Below are positions 2,360 through 9,870 of a stretch of 9,870 bases of DNA, piece by piece; the first letter of the stretch is position 1, and each line of letters begins with the position of its first letter. This DNA comes from Dehalococcoidales bacterium (GTDB lineage Bacteria > Chloroflexota > Dehalococcoidia > Dehalococcoidales > ARS1013). The notes beneath the pieces were generated by a model, which was not told the DNA's origin, ran no database searches, and was given only the letters and a program-made list of their open reading frames with translations. The stretch spans positions 10,152-20,021 of the forward strand of contig NZEH01000026.1 of assembly GCA_002690375.1 (NCBI GenBank), written 5' to 3'. Position numbers and translations under genes: made by a program.

Positions 2360-4594
2360 TTATTCCAGCTTCTCCAAATGGGCAAAGCTTAAAAGGAGCT
2401 TTTTAACTCCCACTCCCCTAAAGGCGACTACCACCTCGTTATCGTCAGTTACCGGCCGAGAGCTTATTACCAGCCCTTCACCAAAGTGGGCATGGCGAAC
2501 GTGGTCACCAGCTTCCAAGTCAGGAATGGAGATAGTACCGGTGGGGGCAAAAGTATCAGTCGGAGTACTATCCCAGGAATAGGAGCGGCTCGCCATCTGG
2601 TTCTCTTGCTCCAATTGTACCCCAGTATTCGAAATTAAATGGCGGGGTATATCTTCTAAGAATCGTGATGAGCTATTTACGGTACTTAAGCCCATCAGAC
2701 GGCGGCGAAAGGCATGGACTAGGTACACCCTATGCTTGGCTCTGGTGATGCCGACATAACAAAGTCGTCGCTCCTCCTCCATCTGTTCCGGGTTATCAAA
2801 TGACCTAAAGTGTGGCAGAATCCCCTCTTCCAGCCCAACAATAAATACCACTGGAAATTCTAAGCCCTTAGCTTGATGAAGCGTAATCAGGGTTACTGCA
2901 TTAGTACTTTCATTAAGTCCATCAACATCAGATACTAACGTTACTCCTTCTAGAAAGGCAGTCAGCCCCTCCCTGGGGTTTAAGTCGCTATACTGGCTAG
3001 CGACACTGCCAAGCTCAAGGATATTATCCCAGCGCTCCTCCCCATCCACCTCTTTTAGTAGATACTCCCTGTAGCCTAGATTCTTTATCACCAGACTAAA
3101 CAGTTCAGCCAGATTAAGCTTATTACTGTGGGTAGTAAGTTCTTTCAACAAGTCAAAAAACTCAGCCAGTGCTCTAACGGTGCGAGAGCTAAACGGCGGC
3201 TTATTACTTTCGGATTTATTGTCATTAGATAAAGAGATAAGTCTTAAGGCCTCGTATAGCGACACTCCTTTAGACTTTGCCCAACTGGATAGTTCGCTTA
3301 GGCTGCGCTTGCCTATGCCGCGCTGGGGAACATTGATGACCCTTAACAGGCTAATGCTGTCATGGGTATTCTGAATAAGCTTAAGATAAGTAATAATGTC
3401 TTTAACCTCTCGTCGTTCATAGAAGCGAGTGCCACCCACCAGTTTATAGGGCGTCTCGTAGTGGATAAAGGCTTCCTCAATGGCTCTTGACTGAGCATTG
3501 GTGCGATACATCACGGCACAGTCAGAAAGACTGGCTTTACCACTCTCCACCAGGTGGCTAACTTCACTGACTACAAACTGAGCTTCTTCTTGCTCATTAT
3601 AGGTTTCAGCAACTGTAGTTAGTTCGCCGGGCTCATTATCAGTCCATAGCTTCTTGGGCTGGCGCTGTCCATTACCTGAGATTATATAGGATGCTGTCTC
3701 CAGAACCCTTTTAGTTGAGCGGTAGTTCTGCTCCAATAGCACTACTTTAGTATCGGGATAACCCTTCTCAAAATTAATAATGTTACGCATGTCAGCAGAG
3801 CGCCACGAGTAGATTGATTGGTCAGGGTCGCCAACGACACATATATTGCGATACTTTCCCGATAGTTGCTTTACCAGTTCATACTGGGTAACGTTGGTAT
3901 CCTGAAACTCGTCCACCATAATGTGGCGGTATCTTTTCTGGTATTTAGCTAGGACCTCAGGGTGGTCCCTAAATAGCTTAACGACCTGCATCAGCAGGTC
4001 GTCAAAATCAAGGGTGCTATTTTCAGTCAGTAGCTGCTGGTAGCGCTCGTAGACCCTGCCTATTACCTCATCAAAATAGCTGGTGGCCCGCTCGATATAA
4101 TTCTTGGGCGTTAACATCTGACTCTTTGCAGCAGAAATGCCTGAATGAATTGCGGACGGGGTATACTGTTTGGGGTCAAGTCCCGTATCTTGGGTAGCCT
4201 GCTTTACTAGCTTGAGTTGGTCTCCCTTATCATAGATAGTAAAGCCGGGGTTAATACCTATAGCCCGCCCATCTCGGCGCAGGATACGGGCGCAAATAGC
4301 GTGAAAGGTACCCACCGTAATCTGGCCCCGCATACTCCAAGTAAGTAGTGGAGCGGCAGGGTTCTTTTTACCTTTTCCGAATAAACGGGACTCCATCTCC
4401 CGCGCCGCTTTATTGGTAAAGGTAACGGCCATGATGTGGCGGGGACTGATGCCACAAATTTTGATGAGATAAGCAATACGATGGGTAATAACCCTAGTTT
4501 TGCCACTACCGGGGCCAGCTAGAATTAAAACCGGACCGCTCACCTGCTCTACAGCTTCCCTTTGTGCTGGGTTAAGCTTTTCTAAAATATCCAT
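2360..4594 (-). CDS. pcrA: ATP-dependent 3'-5' DNA helicase of the UvrD/PcrA family
   Basis: This is a superfamily 1A helicase of 744 residues, a normal length. Motifs seen in order: Walker A G-P-G-S-G-K-T-R (27-34), Ia T-F-T-N-K-A-A (58-64), T-F-H-A (96-99), Walker B D-E-F-Q-D (228-232), III G-D-P-D-Q-S-I-Y-S-W-R (255-265), IV Q-N-Y-R-S (289-293), V T-L-H-Q-A-K-G-L-E (571-579), and VI Y-V-G-I-T-R-A-K (613-620). The C-terminus (about 695-744, V-R-H-A-H-F-G-E-G then G-V-K-K-L-L-L-S-F) is the Tudor-like domain found in PcrA/UvrD, which in studied relatives contacts RNA polymerase. Family roles are nucleotide excision repair, removal of RecA filaments, transcription-replication conflict repair and, in some bacteria, mismatch repair. 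It is transcribed ahead of mutL in what appears to be a two-gene unit. UvrD and PcrA cannot be told apart by sequence alone here. The start M-D-I-L-E-K-L-N-P-A-Q is standard for the family, but no Shine-Dalgarno precedes it. Confidence 0.96.
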   Translation of the reverse strand: MDILEKLNPAQREAVEQVSGPVLILAGPGSGKTRVITHRIAYLIKICGISPRHIMAVTFTNKAAREMESRLFGKGKKNPAAPLLTWSMRGQITVGTFHAICARILRRDGRAIGINPGFTIYDKGDQLKLVKQATQDTGLDPKQYTPSAIHSGISAAKSQMLTPKNYIERATSYFDEVIGRVYERYQQLLTENSTLDFDDLLMQVVKLFRDHPEVLAKYQKRYRHIMVDEFQDTNVTQYELVKQLSGKYRNICVVGDPDQSIYSWRSADMRNIINFEKGYPDTKVVLLEQNYRSTKRVLETASYIISGNGQRQPKKLWTDNEPGELTTVAETYNEQEEAQFVVSEVSHLVESGKASLSDCAVMYRTNAQSRAIEEAFIHYETPYKLVGGTRFYERREVKDIITYLKLIQNTHDSISLLRVINVPQRGIGKRSLSELSSWAKSKGVSLYEALRLISLSNDNKSESNKPPFSSRTVRALAEFFDLLKELTTHSNKLNLAELFSLVIKNLGYREYLLKEVDGEERWDNILELGSVASQYSDLNPREGLTAFLEGVTLVSDVDGLNESTNAVTLITLHQAKGLEFPVVFIVGLEEGILPHFRSFDNPEQMEEERRLCYVGITRAKHRVYLVHAFRRRLMGLSTVNSSSRFLEDIPRHLISNTGVQLEQENQMASRSYSWDSTPTDTFAPTGTISIPDLEAGDHVRHAHFGEGLVISSRPVTDDNEVVVAFRGVGVKKLLLSFAHLEKLE

Positions 4595-4682: not shown

Positions 4683-4711
4683 TTGTCAAAATTTTTTTCA
4701 TGTGGTATAAT
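4683..4711 (+). promoter_or_regulatory. Promoter of the pyrimidine operon
   Basis: TTGTCA (4683-4688), a 17-bp spacer and TATAAT (4706-4711) make a near-consensus housekeeping promoter. A TG at 4703-4704 adds an extended -10. The spacer contains a T-run (4692-4698). The expected transcription start is around 4718, giving a leader of about 105 bases before pyrR. This is just long enough for the three RNA structures listed below. Confidence 0.8.
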
Positions 4712-4741
4712 CCAAGTAAGTTAAAGTAGAATAAGATTATA

Positions 4742-4773
4742 CCTTTAAGCTAGTCCAGTGAGGCTGGTAAGGG
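4742..4773 (+). promoter_or_regulatory. PyrR-binding RNA hairpin (anti-antiterminator)
   Basis: AGTCCAGTGAGGCT at 4752-4765 matches the known PyrR-binding loop consensus ARUCCNGNGAGGYU at every position. It is held in a hairpin: lower stem 4742-4747 with 4768-4773 (six pairs including one U-G), an unpaired purine pair AG at 4748-4749 on the 5' side, then an upper stem 4750-4753 with 4764-4767. CC (4755-4756) pairs with GG (4762-4763) and closes the loop. A purine-rich 5' internal bulge below the loop is a feature of characterised PyrR sites. By family knowledge, PyrR bound to UMP stabilises this form, which removes 4762-4773 from the competing antiterminator. Confidence 0.88.
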
Positions 4774-4802
4774 AAATAAGTTAGCAGGACCTCTTGCCAG
4801 CC
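4762..4802 (+). promoter_or_regulatory. Antiterminator stem of the pyr leader
   Basis: Bases 4762-4773 (GGCTGGTAAGGG) can pair with 4791-4802 (CTCTTGCCAGCC) to give a 12-bp stem with two G-U pairs and a 17-base loop. It uses the 3' half of the PyrR-binding hairpin and the 5' arm of the terminator, so it excludes both. This is the state expected when UMP is low and PyrR is not bound. The call rests on manual base pairing, not on folding energies. Confidence 0.78.
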
Positions 4803-4821
4803 AAGGTAAGGGGTTATTTTT
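4790..4821 (+). terminator. Attenuator hairpin that also covers the pyrR ribosome binding site
   Basis: CCTCTTGCC (4790-4798) pairs with GGTAAGGGG (4805-4813), giving nine pairs with two G-U and a 6-base loop AGCCAA. The T-rich stretch TTATTTTT (4814-4821) follows at once, and the pyrR ATG comes directly after it. This has the form of an intrinsic terminator. The 3' arm contains AAGGGG (4808-4813), which is the pyrR Shine-Dalgarno at 8 bases from the ATG. The same fold would therefore block ribosome entry on any message that reads through. The T-run is interrupted by one A, so termination could be partial. Confidence 0.75.
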
Positions 4822-5388
4822 ATGGCTAAAAAAATTATAATGACCGCTTCTGACATTAGGCGGACTCTGGCTCGCATTGCTCATGAAATCATTGAGTTTA
4901 ATAAATCTACCGAACACCTAGTTCTGGTTGGCATGCGCACTCGTGGTGTGCCACTGGCTAAGAGGCTAGCCGCCAATATAGCAGATTTTGAGGGGGCAAA
5001 AATAGCGGTTGGTGCTTTAGACTTCAGTCTCTATAGAGACGACCTTAGTTCACTTGGCCTTCAACCAATTGTCAAAAGCACCGATATTCCGATAAGTATT
5101 GCAAACAGAGTAATTGTCTTAGTTGATGATGTTCTCTACACCGGACGTAGTACCCGTGCCGCAATGAATGCCATTATTGACTTGGGACGCCCACAGTTTA
5201 TCCAACTAGCGGTGCTTATTGACCGCGGTCACCGTGAGCTTCCGATACGAGCTGACTATGTCGGCAAGAATATGCCTAGCTCAAGGTATGAGGAGATACA
5301 GGTCAAGCTTAGGGAAACCGATGGCGTAGATGAGGTAGCCATCATTCCCACACCGCTGGCTAAGGAGGAAAATCATGAGAGAAGTTAA
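4822..5388 (+). CDS. pyrR: Bifunctional pyr operon regulator / uracil phosphoribosyltransferase PyrR
   Basis: PyrR binds the pyr leader RNA when UMP is high and lowers operon expression. Many members also convert uracil plus PRPP to UMP. The 188 residues (typical about 180) have the phosphoribosyltransferase type I fold. The PRPP loop [13 protein letters not shown] lies at about 99-111, with the acidic pair Asp102-Asp103. The signature [19 protein letters not shown] (132-150) separates PyrR from ordinary uracil or adenine phosphoribosyltransferases. Basic residues in the N-terminal half (R38-T-R-G) and after the PRPP loop fit an RNA-binding face. The gene is first in the operon and directly behind a matching RNA target, which supports autoregulation. 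It overlaps pyrB by 14 bases. The start is set by AAGGGG at 8 bases spacing and by the normal length. Confidence 0.96.
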
Positions 5389-6379
5389 GCAAAAGGATGA
5401 ACTGGCGGAAGAAGTAAAACCAGAAACATTAGCGACAACTCCACTGTGGCAACACCGCCATATACTTGATCTTGATGATTTTACCTCTGCAGAGATAGAG
5501 CTTGTTCTTAAAACAGCTGACGCCATGAAGGAAGTGCTGTCCCGGCCGATTAAAAAGGTACCTACCCTCCGCGGTAAGACAGTGATTACCCTGTTCTATG
5601 AGCCTAGCACCCGTACCCGCTCATCCTTTGAGTTGGCAGCCAAGAATTTGAGTGCTGATGTGATAAGCTTGAACGCTCAAACAAGTAGCTCCGTCAAGGG
5701 TGAATCTCTGGTTAGTGTCCTTGGGACACTTGAAGCATTGGGGGCAGATGTAGTGGTCATGCGGCACTTTCATTCGGGAGCTCCCTACATCGCTGCTAGG
5801 TATATGCGGGCAAATATGGTCAATGCTGGTGATGGCTGGCATGCCCACCCTACTCAGGCACTGCTTGACCTCTACACTATCCGCGAGCATAAGAAAAGCT
5901 TCAAGGGGCTAAAGGTGGTCATAATTGGCGATATTAAGCACAGCCGTGTGGCTCGTTCCAATATCTGGGGACTAACTACTATGGGAGCCGAGGTGAGCGT
6001 GTGCTGTCCTTTTACCCTTTTACCCGCTGGTCTAGATGTAGCACAGCATCACTTTCCCAAGGTTAATATTGAGCCTGAAATTGAGTCAACTCTTCGTGGA
6101 GCCGATGTGGTTATGACATTACGCTTGCAACTGGAAAGACAGCAAAGCGGATTATTACCTAGCATCCGTGAGTATGTAAAGCTATATCAGCTTACCGAGG
6201 CTAGGCTGGCTAATGCTAAGGCTGACGCTATAGTTCTTCATCCCGGTCCGGTAAATCGGGACATTGAAATTTCTTCAGCCGTAGCTCAAGGTCCACAATC
6301 AGTCATAAATGAGCAGATAACAAATGGGGTAGCGGTGCGCATGGCTTTACTTTATCTACTAGCCGGGGGTAACAGATGA
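5375..6379 (+). CDS. pyrB: Aspartate carbamoyltransferase catalytic subunit
   Basis: The enzyme joins carbamoyl phosphate and aspartate to N-carbamoyl-aspartate in the cytoplasm. Seen in 334 residues: S-T-R-T-R (78-82), the carbamoyl-phosphate loop, then S-S-V-K-G-E-S (105-111) with Lys108, M-R-H (129-131), [10 protein letters not shown] (152-161), [12 protein letters not shown] (185-196), the aspartate-binding L-R-L-Q (249-252), and H-P-G-P-V-N-R (289-295). The G-D-I-K-H-S-R and H-P-x-P-V-N-R forms resemble the Bacillus-type trimeric enzyme, which works without a regulatory subunit. No pyrI gene follows. About 28 hydrophilic, charged residues precede the core and are longer than usual. A strong site, AAGGAGG at 5362-5368 and 6 bases before the ATG, supports this start. 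The start overlaps the end of pyrR, and the stop shares ATGA with pyrC. Confidence 0.96.
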
Positions 6380-7725
6380 TGATAGCGAAGCCATTACTAA
6401 TCCAAGGCGGTCGTATAATTGACCCCAGCCAGGGAATAGATAGAATTGGTAATTTGATAATCTCAGGCGATAAAATCTTGGGACTAGGCACTGCCCAGTC
6501 TAGCCTGCCCGATTCAGATTACGATATCATCAATGCTGAAGGCCTAATCGTTTGTCCTGGTTTTATTGACCTCCACTGCCACTTAAGGCAGCCCGGTTTT
6601 GAGGAAAAGGAGACCATCTCAAGCGGCAGCCGAGCCGCTGCTAGGGGTGGCTTTACCACTATCTGTTGTATGCCCAATACTAACCCACCATTAGATGACC
6701 AGGCTACTATAGATTTTGTAAAGTCAACCGCAGCTAGCGAAGGTGTAGTCCGTGTTCTGCCTGTTGGCTGTATTTCTAAAGGCAGAAAGGGTAAAGAACT
6801 AGCTGAGATGGGAGAATTGGCCCAGGCCGGGGCGATTGCCTTCAGTGACGACGGTCAGCCGCTAAGGAGCTCACGCCTGATGCGTCAGGCAATGGAATAT
6901 AGTCTTGCCTTTTCTTTGCCGCTTATTGACCACTGTGAGGATACCGCCCTTAGTGAGGGCGGGCAGATGAATGAGGGTATCATAGCCACCAAGCTAGGTC
7001 TTTGTGGAATACCAGCTGCTGCCGAGGAGAGTATAGTTGCCCGTGACCTAGCCTTAGCTCACCTCATCGGGGCTCGCCTGCACATTGCCCATACCACGAC
7101 TCAAGGCTCGGTTGAGCTTATCCGTCGTGCTAAAGAGAAGGGGATCAAAGTTACCGCTGAGGTTACTCCCCATCACCTCACTCTGACCGAAGAAAGGGTA
7201 ATCGGTTATGACACCAATGCCAAGGTAAATCCACCATTAAGAACCAAGCGGGATATAAAGGCTTTAATTGTGGGGTTGAAGGAAGGCGTTATTGATATTA
7301 TCGCTACTGACCACGCCCCTCACACTGGAAATGATAAACTCTCGGAGTTTGCTCTGGCTCCTTTCGGCATTAGTGGATTGGAAACGGCACTGGGTAGCCT
7401 GATGAGCTTGGTTCACGATGAAGAGCTAACTCTAGCTATTCTAATTGCCAAGCTTACCTGTGGGCCAGCCAAGCTCATCGGTACCGGATATGGCAAGCTG
7501 GGCACTCTAGAAGTTGGCGCCTCGGCTGAGGTAACTATTTTTGACCCTGACTTGGAGTGGATGGTAGATGCCAGTGATTTTACATCCAAAGGTAAAAATA
7601 CGCCACTTAATGGCAAAAAGCTAAAGGGCAAGATAATAGCAACCATATATCAAGGGAAGCTCGTGTATAAAGATGATAGGCTAACAATCCAATCGGGTAA
7701 ATTATGGTTAAAAAGACAACACTAG
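6376..7725 (+). CDS. pyrC: Dihydroorotase, class I
   Basis: This amidohydrolase closes carbamoyl-aspartate to dihydroorotate. Metal and substrate residues visible in 449 residues: H-C-H-L-R (67-71), P-N-T (100-102), F-S-D-D-G (156-160), D-H-C-E-D (185-189), H-I-A-H-T-T (236-241), V-N-P-P-L-R (284-289), and A-T-D-H-A-P-H (310-316) with the essential Asp312. The length and motifs fit the longer class I type (Aquifex and Bacillus-like, often in complex with PyrB) rather than the short class II of E. coli. In studied class I enzymes the aspartate of the F-S-D-D-G region takes the place of the carboxylated lysine. Two ATGs lie in a row at 6376 and 6379. GGGGGT at 6365-6370 is 5 bases from the first and 8 from the second, so the second may be the true start. 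It overlaps pyrB by 4 bases and carA by 22. Confidence 0.95.
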
Positions 7726-8795
7726 TCCTAGAAGATGGCTCAGCTTACGAAGGTTACTCCTTTGGTGCTGAGGCTGATACTTATGGCGAAGTGGTCTTCA
7801 ATACCAGCATGATTGGCTATCAGGAGATGCTGACCGATCCATCCTATGCCGGGCAGATTGTTGTGCCCACCTATCCCTTAATCGGCAACTACGGTGTAAA
7901 TAACGAGGACTTTGAATCAAATAAAATCCAAGTAAGGGGCTTTGTCGTCAGAGAGGAGTGCCCCCAGCCAAATCACTACCTCAGCACCGCCACCCTCCAC
8001 CAGTATCTTGAGGAAGCCGGTATACCCGGTATAAGTGGTGTGGATACTCGGGCTATTACCCGCCAGCTTCGCTCATCAGGGGTAATGATGGGTATCATAA
8101 CTAGCGATAAGACCCCCGAACAGGCATTAGAAGAGCTAGAAAGAGCACCTAGATACGGTTCTACTGATTATGTAAAGCAAATTACTGCCAACGCTTCCTA
8201 CCAGTGGCAACTGGAACTAGCTAGCTCAAAGCCTTTATATAATATAGTAGTTCTGGACTGTGGTCTGAAATACAATATTCTGCGCTTACTTTCCCATCTG
8301 GGTTGCCGGGTAACGGCTGTCCCAGCCACTACATCAGCCGAGGATATCCTGATATTAAAACCGGATGGCATTCTTCTATCCCCAGGGCCAGGTGACCCGG
8401 AACTACTGGACTACATCGTAGGTACAGTCCGGAAACTCATTGGCAGAAAGCCAATGATGGGTGTCTGCCTGGGTAATCAGCTTATTGCCCGTGCTTTTGG
8501 CGCCAAAACTTTCAAGTTGAAATTTGGTCATCGCGGCGGTAACCACCCGGTTAGAGACCTGTCAACTGGGCGCATCCACATCACTGCTCAAAACCACGGC
8601 TATGCCGTTTCTCCCGATAGCTTAAAAGACGGCTTAGAGGTAAGCCACATAAACCTAAATGATGGTACGGTGGAAGGCTTGTGCCATAAAGAGCTACCCA
8701 TATTCGCTATCCAGTATCATAGTGAAGCATCACCTGGTCCGCTGGATAACACCTACCTTTTTGAGAAGTTTCTGGGGATGTTAAGGGTAGGGTAA
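7704..8795 (+). CDS. carA: Carbamoyl-phosphate synthase small subunit (glutamine amidotransferase)
   Basis: CarA hydrolyses glutamine and passes ammonia through a tunnel to CarB. The 363 residues contain the N-terminal CPSase small domain (L-V-L-E-D-G at 7-12, G-E-V-V-F-N-T-S-M-I-G-Y-Q at 28-40, S-G-V-D-T-R-A-I-T-R at 111-120). The C-terminal class I amidotransferase follows: L-S-P-G-P-G-D-P (225-232), the nucleophile Cys255 in G-V-C-L-G-N-Q, and His339 with Glu341 in Q-Y-H-S-E-A-S-P-G-P. The triad is complete, so it should be active. The ATG lies inside the end of pyrC, with a modest GGG site about 6 bases upstream, so coupling to pyrC translation is likely. The last codons run into a G-rich repeat that includes the stop codon. 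Confidence 0.96.
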   Translation: MVKKTTLVLEDGSAYEGYSFGAEADTYGEVVFNTSMIGYQEMLTDPSYAGQIVVPTYPLIGNYGVNNEDFESNKIQVRGFVVREECPQPNHYLSTATLHQYLEEAGIPGISGVDTRAITRQLRSSGVMMGIITSDKTPEQALEELERAPRYGSTDYVKQITANASYQWQLELASSKPLYNIVVLDCGLKYNILRLLSHLGCRVTAVPATTSAEDILILKPDGILLSPGPGDPELLDYIVGTVRKLIGRKPMMGVCLGNQLIARAFGAKTFKLKFGHRGGNHPVRDLSTGRIHITAQNHGYAVSPDSLKDGLEVSHINLNDGTVEGLCHKELPIFAIQYHSEASPGPLDNTYLFEKFLGMLRVG

Positions 8796-8849: not shown

Positions 8850-9053
8850 ACGGGGACAAAGGGGGTAAGCTGGAAAAGGGAAGAGATCACTTATATCTAT
8901 GAAGAAGAAAAGGAATTCTTAGAAGATCTTGAAAGAATATTTAATGAATTATCGCGCAAGTATGGCCAAAACTTGTGGTCATTTGATATTTCTCCACTCA
9001 ACAATACGATAATAATACTAAATGAAATAGATTTAGGAGTATATATATATTGA
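8850..9053 (+). pseudogene. Open frame without start codon between carA and carB; probable gene remnant
   Basis: After a TAA at 8847-8849 the frame stays open for 67 codons to TGA at 9051-9053. There is no in-frame ATG or GTG, and the only TTG is late (within N-L-W). The translation reads like real protein: charged and helical first (E-E-E-K-E-F-L-E-D-L-E-R-I-F-N-E-L), then L-W-S-F-D-I-S-P-L-N and an isoleucine-rich end ([15 protein letters not shown]). I do not recognise a family. Base use is much richer in A and T than in carA or carB. An ATG at 8899 is in another frame and stops after eight codons. Either this is the 3' remnant of a gene brought in or left between carA and carB, or a small protein using a rare start such as ATC at 8886. 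The stop overlaps the carB start. Confidence 0.35.
9035..9039 (+). promoter_or_regulatory. carB ribosome binding site deciding a TTG start
   Basis: AGGAG lies 10 bases before TTG at 9050. The spacer is a run of alternating TA. No ATG or GTG lies in the carB frame between here and the conserved K-V-L-I-I-G-S-G-P region, so TTG is the best start. Confidence 0.7.
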
Positions 9054-9870
9054 CCAAAAAACCATCTAAAGTCCTAATTATCGGGTCAGGGCCGATTGTC
9101 ATCGGGCAGGCGGCTGAGTTTGACTATGCTGGCACACAGGCGTGTAAGGCAATGAGGGAAGAAGGGGTAACCTCGGTGTTGGTTAACTCCAACCCGGCGA
9201 CCATTATGACCGATGAGGGCATCGCTGATATTATCTATATTGAGCCACTGACGGTGGCTATGGTTGCCCGCATCATTGAAAGAGAGCGCCCCGACGGACT
9301 GTTGCCTACCCTTGGTGGTCAAACGGGGCTAAATCTGGCAGTTGATTTAGCCGATGCCGGCGTGCTTGATAAATACAATGTAAAGAGCCTGGGGACGCCG
9401 ATAGAGACGATACGAATGGCTGAAGACCGAGAGTTATTTAAGCAAATGCTGATTAAAATCAACGAGTCGGTGCCCAAAAGTGCCACCGTAACCAGCCTTA
9501 AGCAAGCGAACAAGGTGGCTAAAGAGTTGAGTCTGCCGCTGGTAGTCCGTCCGGCCTATACATTGGGGGGGACGGGGGGAGGTATTGCCAGCACCTTAAA
9601 GGAACTGGGAGAAATTGTAACTGCTGGTCTTGCCGCCAGCCCTATCGGTCAAGTGCTTCTGGAAAGCTCGCTGGTTGGTTGGAAGGAAATTGAGTATGAG
9701 GTCATGCGAGACGCTGCCGATAACTGCATCACCGTCTGCAATATGGAGAATTTTGACCCCATGGGGGTGCATACTGGTGATAGCATTGTGGTTGCCCCCA
9801 GCCAGACGCTAACCAATAAAGAGTATCAGATGCTTAGGACAGCCAGCTTAAAGATTATCCGTGCCCTTGG
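9050..9870 (+). CDS. carB: Carbamoyl-phosphate synthase large subunit, N-terminal quarter (runs off window)
   Basis: CarB makes carbamoyl phosphate from bicarbonate, ammonia delivered by CarA and two ATP. Only 273 codons of an expected roughly 1070 are present, all from the first (carboxyphosphate) half. Seen: [22 protein letters not shown] near the start, the preATP-grasp fold; then [21 protein letters not shown], the ATP-grasp glycine loop [23 protein letters not shown], and [15 protein letters not shown]. No break is seen. The TTG start overlaps the stop of the preceding startless frame by two bases. Unlike the other operon genes it does not overlap its real upstream neighbour carA but lies 254 bases beyond it. 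I see no separate promoter of good quality in the gap, so it is probably transcribed with the operon. Confidence 0.95.

Follow-up and report, generated by a model that had tools for sequence, protein, structure and literature searches.

One predicted hairpin as terminator and Shine-Dalgarno cover in the PyrR leaders of most sampled Dehalococcoidia

In Mycobacterium, PyrR reportedly controls translation: Fields and Switzer are said to have described in 2007 a Shine-Dalgarno (SD) sequence placed in the PyrR-binding hairpin, with no terminator needed. In the Bacillus-type attenuator, as described in PMC7430163, control follows from an anti-antiterminator, an antiterminator and a terminator, three such sites are present in the B. 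subtilis operon, and the PyrR-binding loop has the consensus ARUCCAGAGAGGYU. Barrick and Breaker (2007; PMC2258182) assign dual attenuation of transcription and translation to riboswitches whose terminator lies at most 10 nt from the start codon. PyrR was placed among the motifs of moderate taxonomic spread in a 2013 RNA-motif survey that covered five Chloroflexi genomes (PMC3766115).

The window, that is, the whole stretch of 9,870 nucleotides that was analysed, holds a pyr leader followed by the gene order pyrR-pyrB-pyrC-carA, as named by NCBIfam models, and then by a frame that we take to be carB from its sequence and its position in the operon (Table 1). The cognate pyrR lies directly 3' of the element. 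The product of pyrR matched the PDB entries 1ufr, 1a3c and 1non as well as other PyrR structures, and these alignments begin at residues 1-5, which supports the start at 4822; the reading frame 5' of this AUG is closed by a TAA at 4807-4809. The promoter pair was the best of 17 such sites in the window, where 13.6 were expected by chance, and a TATAAT-like box 5' of the PyrR hairpin was seen by eye in many relatives. The pyr transcript is expected to start at about 4718.

Table 1. Coordinates of the leader elements and operon genes in the window.
Feature	Position	Strand	Remarks
Leader	between pyrR (4822-5388) and the pcrA/uvrD-like gene, which diverges from it on the minus strand with its start codon at 4594		
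Putative sigma-70-type promoter, TTGTCA-17-TATAAT	4683-4711	+	11/12 consensus matches
PyrR-binding hairpin (anti-antiterminator)	4742-4773	+	lower stem CCUU/AAGG, purine bulge, upper stem, loop 4752-4765
Antiterminator, 12 bp	4762-4773 with 4791-4802	+	-18.7 kcal/mol, z -3.16, equalled by 0/200 shuffles
Terminator hairpin, 11 pairs, 6-nt loop	4788-4815	+	3' arm 4805-4815 holds the pyrR SD
SD of pyrR, AAGGGG	4808-4813	+	paired within the terminator
U-tract, TTATTTTT	4814-4821	+	also the SD-AUG spacer
pyrR, PyrR attenuator protein / uracil phosphoribosyltransferase	4822-5388	+	NF003549, 246.5 bits (cut-off 138)
pyrB, aspartate carbamoyltransferase catalytic subunit	5375-6379	+	NF002032, 389 bits (cut-off 263)
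pyrC, dihydroorotase	6376-7725	+	TIGR00857, 436 bits (cut-off 279)
carA, carbamoyl-phosphate synthase small subunit	7704-8795	+	TIGR01368, 484 bits (cut-off 307)
carB (presumed), beginning of the large-subunit gene, incomplete at the window edge	9050-9868	+	from translation

Two further observations were made in the surroundings of these genes. The gap between carA and carB contains a 67-codon stop-to-stop frame on the plus strand (8850-9053) with no ATG or GTG start near its beginning; the TGA that closes this frame (9051-9053) shares bases with the TTG with which carB begins at 9050. At the other end of the window, positions 3-563 of the plus strand encode the last part of a protein whose leucine-rich repeats, of the ISDIS type, are nearly identical to one another (Pfam LRR_4, LRR_8), and this gene adjoins mutL and the pcrA-like helicase gene.

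The leader can form an anti-antiterminator, an antiterminator and a terminator that are mutually exclusive, in agreement with the three-state PyrR attenuator of the original prediction, and these helices are largely kept in 113 relatives. The binding loop, AGTCCAGTGAGGCT, fits the consensus overall, as had been claimed, although not at all positions, since U replaces A at 4759; the purine bulge predicted under the loop is present in the stem. The binding hairpin folds at -11.5 kcal/mol (z -1.4), and as 17 of 200 shuffles were equally good its energy alone is not significant. The 12-bp competing stem proved real (Table 1), and its pairing is modelled to leave the SD sequence free. The hairpin with a T-rich tail was recovered as the terminator, which over 4786-4821 folds at -16.9 kcal/mol (z -3.3, equalled by 2 of 200 shuffles) and is followed by an interrupted U-tract (UUAUUUUU) that runs to 4821. 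What the original prediction missed is that the terminator contains the SD sequence of pyrR and that the U-tract abuts the AUG. The duplex with the anti-SD, GTAAGGGGT, has an energy of -7.8 kcal/mol, and 89% of its bases are paired in the terminator hairpin, whose end (4815) and the AUG (4822) are 6 nt apart, or 8 nt if the stem is trimmed. Hence, the leader is not a plain Bacillus-type attenuator.

Rfam family RF00515 matched positions 4738-4822 over its full length (1-115) with 51.6 bits (E 5.6e-5), the gathering score being 54, and no other RF00515 element was found in the window. The conserved loop on a purine-bulged stem, by which this family is recognised, is present with one base changed. 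Judged by sequence, structure and context, the element appears to belong to the PyrR family, although it scores below the Rfam cut-off. Other Rfam matches in the window, to a snoRNA and to a C. difficile sRNA, were discarded; they lie far below their cut-offs, inside carA and the pcrA-like gene.

The nearest relatives of this PyrR were found in Dehalococcoidales MAGs (87, 84 and 83% identity) and were also the closest rows in a FastTree PyrR tree. In that tree the window falls in a clade of 52 rows, all of them labelled Dehalococcoidia or drawn from the class sample (SH-like support 99), and 17 of the 19 Clostridia rows form a clade of their own. RF00515 matches were present in 170 of the 245 genomes drawn from the class to which genome G003, the source of locus L004, belongs; 57 had matches above the cut-off and 113 of the 170 had none, so that the cut-off is strict for this lineage and PyrR elements are suggested to be under-annotated. 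A larger draw from the class, with many of the same genomes, gave 270 of 393. Across the phylum, class members included, 68 of 251 genomes had matches, and PyrR elements are thus ordinary in Chloroflexota. The host, which the original prediction had supposed to be a Chloroflexota bacterium, is by all these sequence comparisons a Dehalococcoidia-like member of that phylum, and the PyrR element is native there. The same prediction had raised the option of a Firmicutes-type operon head gained by transfer, and the element family is indeed common in Clostridia (84 of 196 genomes). Against it stand the position of the window PyrR, apart from nearly all the Clostridia rows, and the spread of the element across class and phylum; transfer from Firmicutes was rejected on the PyrR tree and is very improbable. 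In one MAG (genome G004), two PyrR elements (L286 and L287) were seen on different contigs, which are either paralogues or the product of a mixed bin.

The layout of the leaders was classified with one script for all groups, the start being the codon closest to where the alignment would place it. Leaders were called merged when the hairpin reached -8 kcal/mol or lower with a tail score of at least 3.0, ended at most 10 nt from the start and paired at least half of the SD duplex. After removal of duplicates, 116 of the 134 analysed Dehalococcoidia pyrR leaders were merged, namely 48 of 57 on named contigs (the window included; some labelled only Chloroflexi) and 68 of 77 in a sample of the class that leans to better-scoring elements. 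Of the other 18, nine hide the SD sequence in a hairpin with a weaker tail, seven have a separate terminator and two have neither. For the named contigs, 80 of 108 relatives were kept, the 57 Chloroflexota-labelled loci and the window were used, and one of these 58 was dropped; L070, whose match begins at residue 50, had been left out. The class sample comprised 60 regions chosen roughly in score order, 31 loci and 7 regions, 98 in all, from which 12 duplicates and nine unanalysed cases were dropped. Eight of these nine lie before carA, and the ninth, L156, is a merged pyrR leader that the loop pattern missed.

Outside this class the layout was different. Among the other sampled Chloroflexota (7 of 40 dropped), 0 of 33 pyrR leaders were merged, 25 had a separate terminator and 8 neither. 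None of the 19 Clostridia pyrR leaders was merged and 17 were separate, after 13 of 32 without pyrR downstream had been dropped, and the three loci from Thermodesulfovibrionales, an uncultured bacterium and Omnitrophota all had a separate terminator and were in no case merged (one of four, L052, was dropped). In Frankia and relatives, a strong terminator was found in 0 of 11 analysed leaders (2 duplicates and 2 unanalysed of 15 dropped). Merged leaders have 3-10 nt from the end of the hairpin to the start; where the two are separate, this distance is 12-128 nt in other Chloroflexota and 20-108 nt in the 17 Clostridia leaders. In a further sample, whose 40 regions likewise lean to better-scoring elements, 31 of 35 analysed leaders were merged and 4 separate; the initial 42 had included 3 duplicates, 3 regions that lack pyrR and 1 in which the loop pattern found no match, all of which were dropped, and two of the 42 (L294 and L295) came from genomes already sampled. 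When merged and separate labels were mapped on the PyrR tree, nine changes were needed: the merged layout is clustered, but either it arose or disappeared repeatedly or the tree has errors.

A second, tandem PyrR element was seen directly before permease-type genes at four Clostridia loci (L243, L244, L256 and L265), its hairpin ending 7 nt from the start and pairing with the SD sequence. L256 had all the features of a merged leader, with a U-run, while L243, L244 and L265 fell short of the thresholds (-7.4 to -7.8 kcal/mol; tails 2.0, 2.1 and 3.2). These tandem leaders differ from that of the window in that they do not precede pyrR and in that a full separate terminator lies 104-119 nt 5' of the start. 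Confinement of the merged layout to Dehalococcoidia was ruled out by L256, together with such close cases; the layout is typical of Dehalococcoidia, not exclusive to that class. Of the 25 other Chloroflexota leaders classed as separate, 11 have a TTG or GTG, in no case an ATG, in frame 2-10 nt past the hairpin, and if some of these are used as starts the contrast with the other Chloroflexota would shrink; the Chloroflexota locus L229, outside the analysed set, is merged if TTG is the start. The NC10 locus L052 may be merged as well: its terminator, U-run and an ATG in frame with pyrR are arranged in this way, and 15 nt further on stands another ATG in the same frame, preceded by an SD sequence of its own; the leader would be separate if this second ATG were the start. 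Additionally, a second PyrR loop was seen by eye before pyrB-like genes at the Clostridia loci L253 and L266, with the 3' arm of its binding hairpin directly containing the SD sequence AAGGAGG, as in the actinobacterial form.

The helices were compared in an alignment of 113 of the 125 SD-hiding leaders. In the binding hairpin the loop columns are invariant and 99.5% of cells were paired. The antiterminator (10 pairs tested) had 92.7% of cells paired and the terminator 93.4%. The covariation score of the binding hairpin exceeded those of all 500 shuffles, and the scores of the other two helices were each matched by 0 of 500, in a control that ignores the kinship of the rows. Two-sided changes were found in 10 of the 11 terminator pairs (equalled by 3 of 500 shuffles), in 4 antiterminator pairs (74 of 500) and in 3 pairs of the binding hairpin (182 of 500); low numbers, as in the latter two helices, are to be expected where conservation of the sequence itself or sharing of a strand leaves little room for change. 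When the partners were slid, all three helices fell on both cells paired and covariation score, whereas two-sided changes did not always fall, with 26 cells against 23 for the binding hairpin slid by +3 and again 10 pairs for the terminator slid by +1. The covariation in relatives that the original prediction had called for was therefore found, most clearly in the terminator. Chance hairpins without any PyrR control could appeal to the Rfam score under the gathering cut-off and to the ordinary stability of the binding hairpin on its own, but the covariation speaks against them, as do the nearly complete pairing and invariant loop of that hairpin and the cognate pyrR downstream; with the covariation contradicting it, this explanation has next to no probability left.

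With constrained folds, the closed state was the more stable one in 110 of the 113 leaders. With the SD sequence forced open, an antiterminator of at least 7 pairs formed in 90 of the 113 and no antiterminator pair in 14. Since the closed state is favoured in isolation, the ON state should depend on co-transcriptional folding. For the window, the fold of 4718-4850 adopted the antiterminator state (-31.2), and constrained folds from 4732 to about 4851 gave -31.1 for the OFF state versus -23.2 with the SD sequence forced open; as the two calculations disagree, equilibrium folding does not settle the state of the switch. Folding in local windows overlooked several terminators, which the antiterminator outcompetes at that scale, and our own stem search was used instead.

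The stretch between hairpin and start was then compared with ordinary spacers. A run of at least four U in the 8 nt before the start was found in 121 of the 125 SD-hiding leaders, 116 of which had been chosen for a tail score of at least 3, versus 1 of 159 background genes, which were selected for having an SD sequence in 400 kb of one Dehalococcoidia genome (G003). Over all Dehalococcoidia leaders analysed, the run was present in at least 121 of 134. The mean number of U in these 8 nt was 6.4 and 2.2, respectively, and the spacer of the SD-hiding leaders does not look like an ordinary one between SD sequence and start. The tail score, calculated with our own formula (Barrick and Breaker used Rnall, with a threshold of 4.0 on its own weights), averaged 4.11 in merged leaders, not far from the 4.59-4.73 of separate PyrR terminators; the window scored 3.69, less than the merged mean and lowered by the A at 4816. 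The SD-start spacing was 4-8 nt in 121 of the 125 SD-hiding leaders, and the tail score fell below 3 in nine of them. In L048, a leader before position 3001, the SD-hiding hairpin is retained and the U-run is largely gone (GGTGTCCTT; GGTGTCCTTATG), which makes this leader a candidate for PyrR control by translation only. This suggests that a few lineages with weak tails may lean mainly on translation.

The 3' arm of the terminator was partly SD-like even where terminator and start are apart. Its mean anti-SD energy was -5.9 in the separate leaders of other Chloroflexota, -3.5 in those of Clostridia and -7.0 in the three other loci, versus -7.7 and -8.1 in merged leaders. This is likely due to the 5' arm, which has to be complementary to the purine-rich side of the binding hairpin. 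If the bases separating terminator and start were lost, the 3' arm could act as an SD sequence.

These data bear on what the merged hairpin does. An ordinary PyrR terminator may have come to lie on the start site through shortening of the leader, the SD sequence in its stem being without regulatory effect because transcripts that escape are already antiterminated. The strong retention of the U-run would be expected of such a terminator, and the overlap could be a cheap by-product, given that the 3' arm echoes the binding-hairpin arm in separate leaders too. Control of transcription alone is nevertheless rather unlikely, although it deserves weight, in view of a merged layout retained in 116 of 134 analysed leaders of a deep class, of the SD-start spacing of 4-8 nt, and of the nine leaders in which the tail is weak but the hairpin still hides the SD sequence, L048 having lost most of its U-run. 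Conversely, the hairpin might only sequester the SD sequence, with no terminator and with the U-rich spacer reflecting a preference in ribosome entry. The interrupted U-tract of the window, with just 8 nt left before the AUG, and the nine weak tails would fit such a sequestor. We consider control of translation alone improbable, as other SD-bearing genes of the one Dehalococcoidia genome sampled have no U-rich spacers and in other Chloroflexota the terminator is separate in most leaders (25 of 33).

A PyrR-dependent attenuator with a dual expression platform, acting on both transcription and translation, is the reading that we regard as probable. From the helices, their covariation and the merged anatomy, we infer the binding of PyrR and UMP, the termination event and the translational arm as follows. 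When UMP is high, PyrR-UMP would keep the binding hairpin (4742-4773) closed, positions 4791-4802 would be left free, the terminator (4788-4815) could form, and RNA polymerase would halt in the U-tract just before the AUG of pyrR. On transcripts that escape, the SD sequence would be locked in the terminator hairpin and ribosomes could not start. When UMP is low, 4762-4773 would pair with 4791-4802, so that no terminator forms, ribosomes have access to the SD sequence and all of the pyrR-pyrBC-carAB operon can be expressed. The U-run and the tail scores speak for termination, and the pairing of the SD sequence in the hairpin and its spacing from the start for sequestration. The dual reading is weakened by the interrupted U-tract of the window, the nine weak tails, the 14 SD-open folds with no antiterminator pair, and the separate terminators of seven Dehalococcoidia leaders and of 4 of 35 in the further sample. 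The SD block would add little if termination were nearly complete.

PyrR elements linked to carA were observed at ten loci of the class (L091, L115, L124, L158, L167, L289, L290, L292, L293 and L303), and most of them repeat by eye the arrangement of hairpin, SD sequence and start. This start opens a mini-ORF, except in L289, where it reads into carA, and in L290, which is ambiguous. In L124 and L292, mini-ORF and carA start share 4 nt; in L158 and L293, the mini-ORF ends 1 and 3 nt before the carA start, respectively. In seven testable loci, a number too small to build on, the stop of the mini-ORF fell between -4 and +10 nt from the carA start in four, versus 0.98 expected by shuffling; L303 is outside this count, and inspection by eye showed the pattern to have picked an incorrect mini-start for L167 and a distant one for L290. 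The position of the stops hints at a role for translation initiation at the carA-linked hairpin. At another locus, L296 (G162:C273), a PyrR element with a terminator lies 5' of a presumably hisF-like gene, so called from its sequence, which has its own SD sequence further down; it is possibly an extension of the regulon related to PRPP, or a mis-binned contig.

As a wider and more tentative proposal, which is possible though more doubtful than assured, most of the Dehalococcoidia may use a fused PyrR off-switch, in which the terminator is the SD cover and the U-tract the spacer. Together with the Clostridia tandem permease leaders, it would stand halfway between the Bacillus-type and the actinobacterial form, and where a second element is present it may drive the translation of carA through the coupled mini-ORF. 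In a literature search with most subscription papers outside its scope, no dual platform described for PyrR was found, nor was any paper linking PyrR with Dehalococcoides. The layout represents a known regulator in a variant form that is real and class-wide: in a presumably protein-controlled attenuator, one hairpin provides both terminator and ribosome-binding site, over most of a deep class that is known here mainly from MAGs. It suggests that few changes are needed for a transcriptional attenuator to turn to control of translation, since the terminator has a 3' arm that resembles the purine-rich side of the binding hairpin from the outset.

In comparison with the known systems, the element resembles the attenuator of Bacillus subtilis and B. 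caldolyticus (RF00515) in its loop consensus, purine bulge, three-helix logic and cis-encoded PyrR. It differs from the B. subtilis operon, with its three sites, in having a single one, and from the Bacillus type in general in lacking a separate ribosome-binding site, since the 3' arm of the terminator is the SD sequence and the U-tract touches the AUG. With actinobacterial PyrR control it would share a PyrR-controlled hairpin that hides the SD sequence. In the Frankia leaders this sequence lies by eye within the PyrR-binding hairpin, whereas that of the window (4808-4813) lies in the downstream terminator and not in the binding hairpin (4742-4773), which sets it apart from the actinobacterial type. 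The window hairpin, 6 nt from the start and with a tail score of 3.69 by our own formula, is within the distance given for dual-attenuation riboswitches by Barrick and Breaker (2007). Unlike those metabolite-binding aptamers, the sensor here would be a protein, PyrR.
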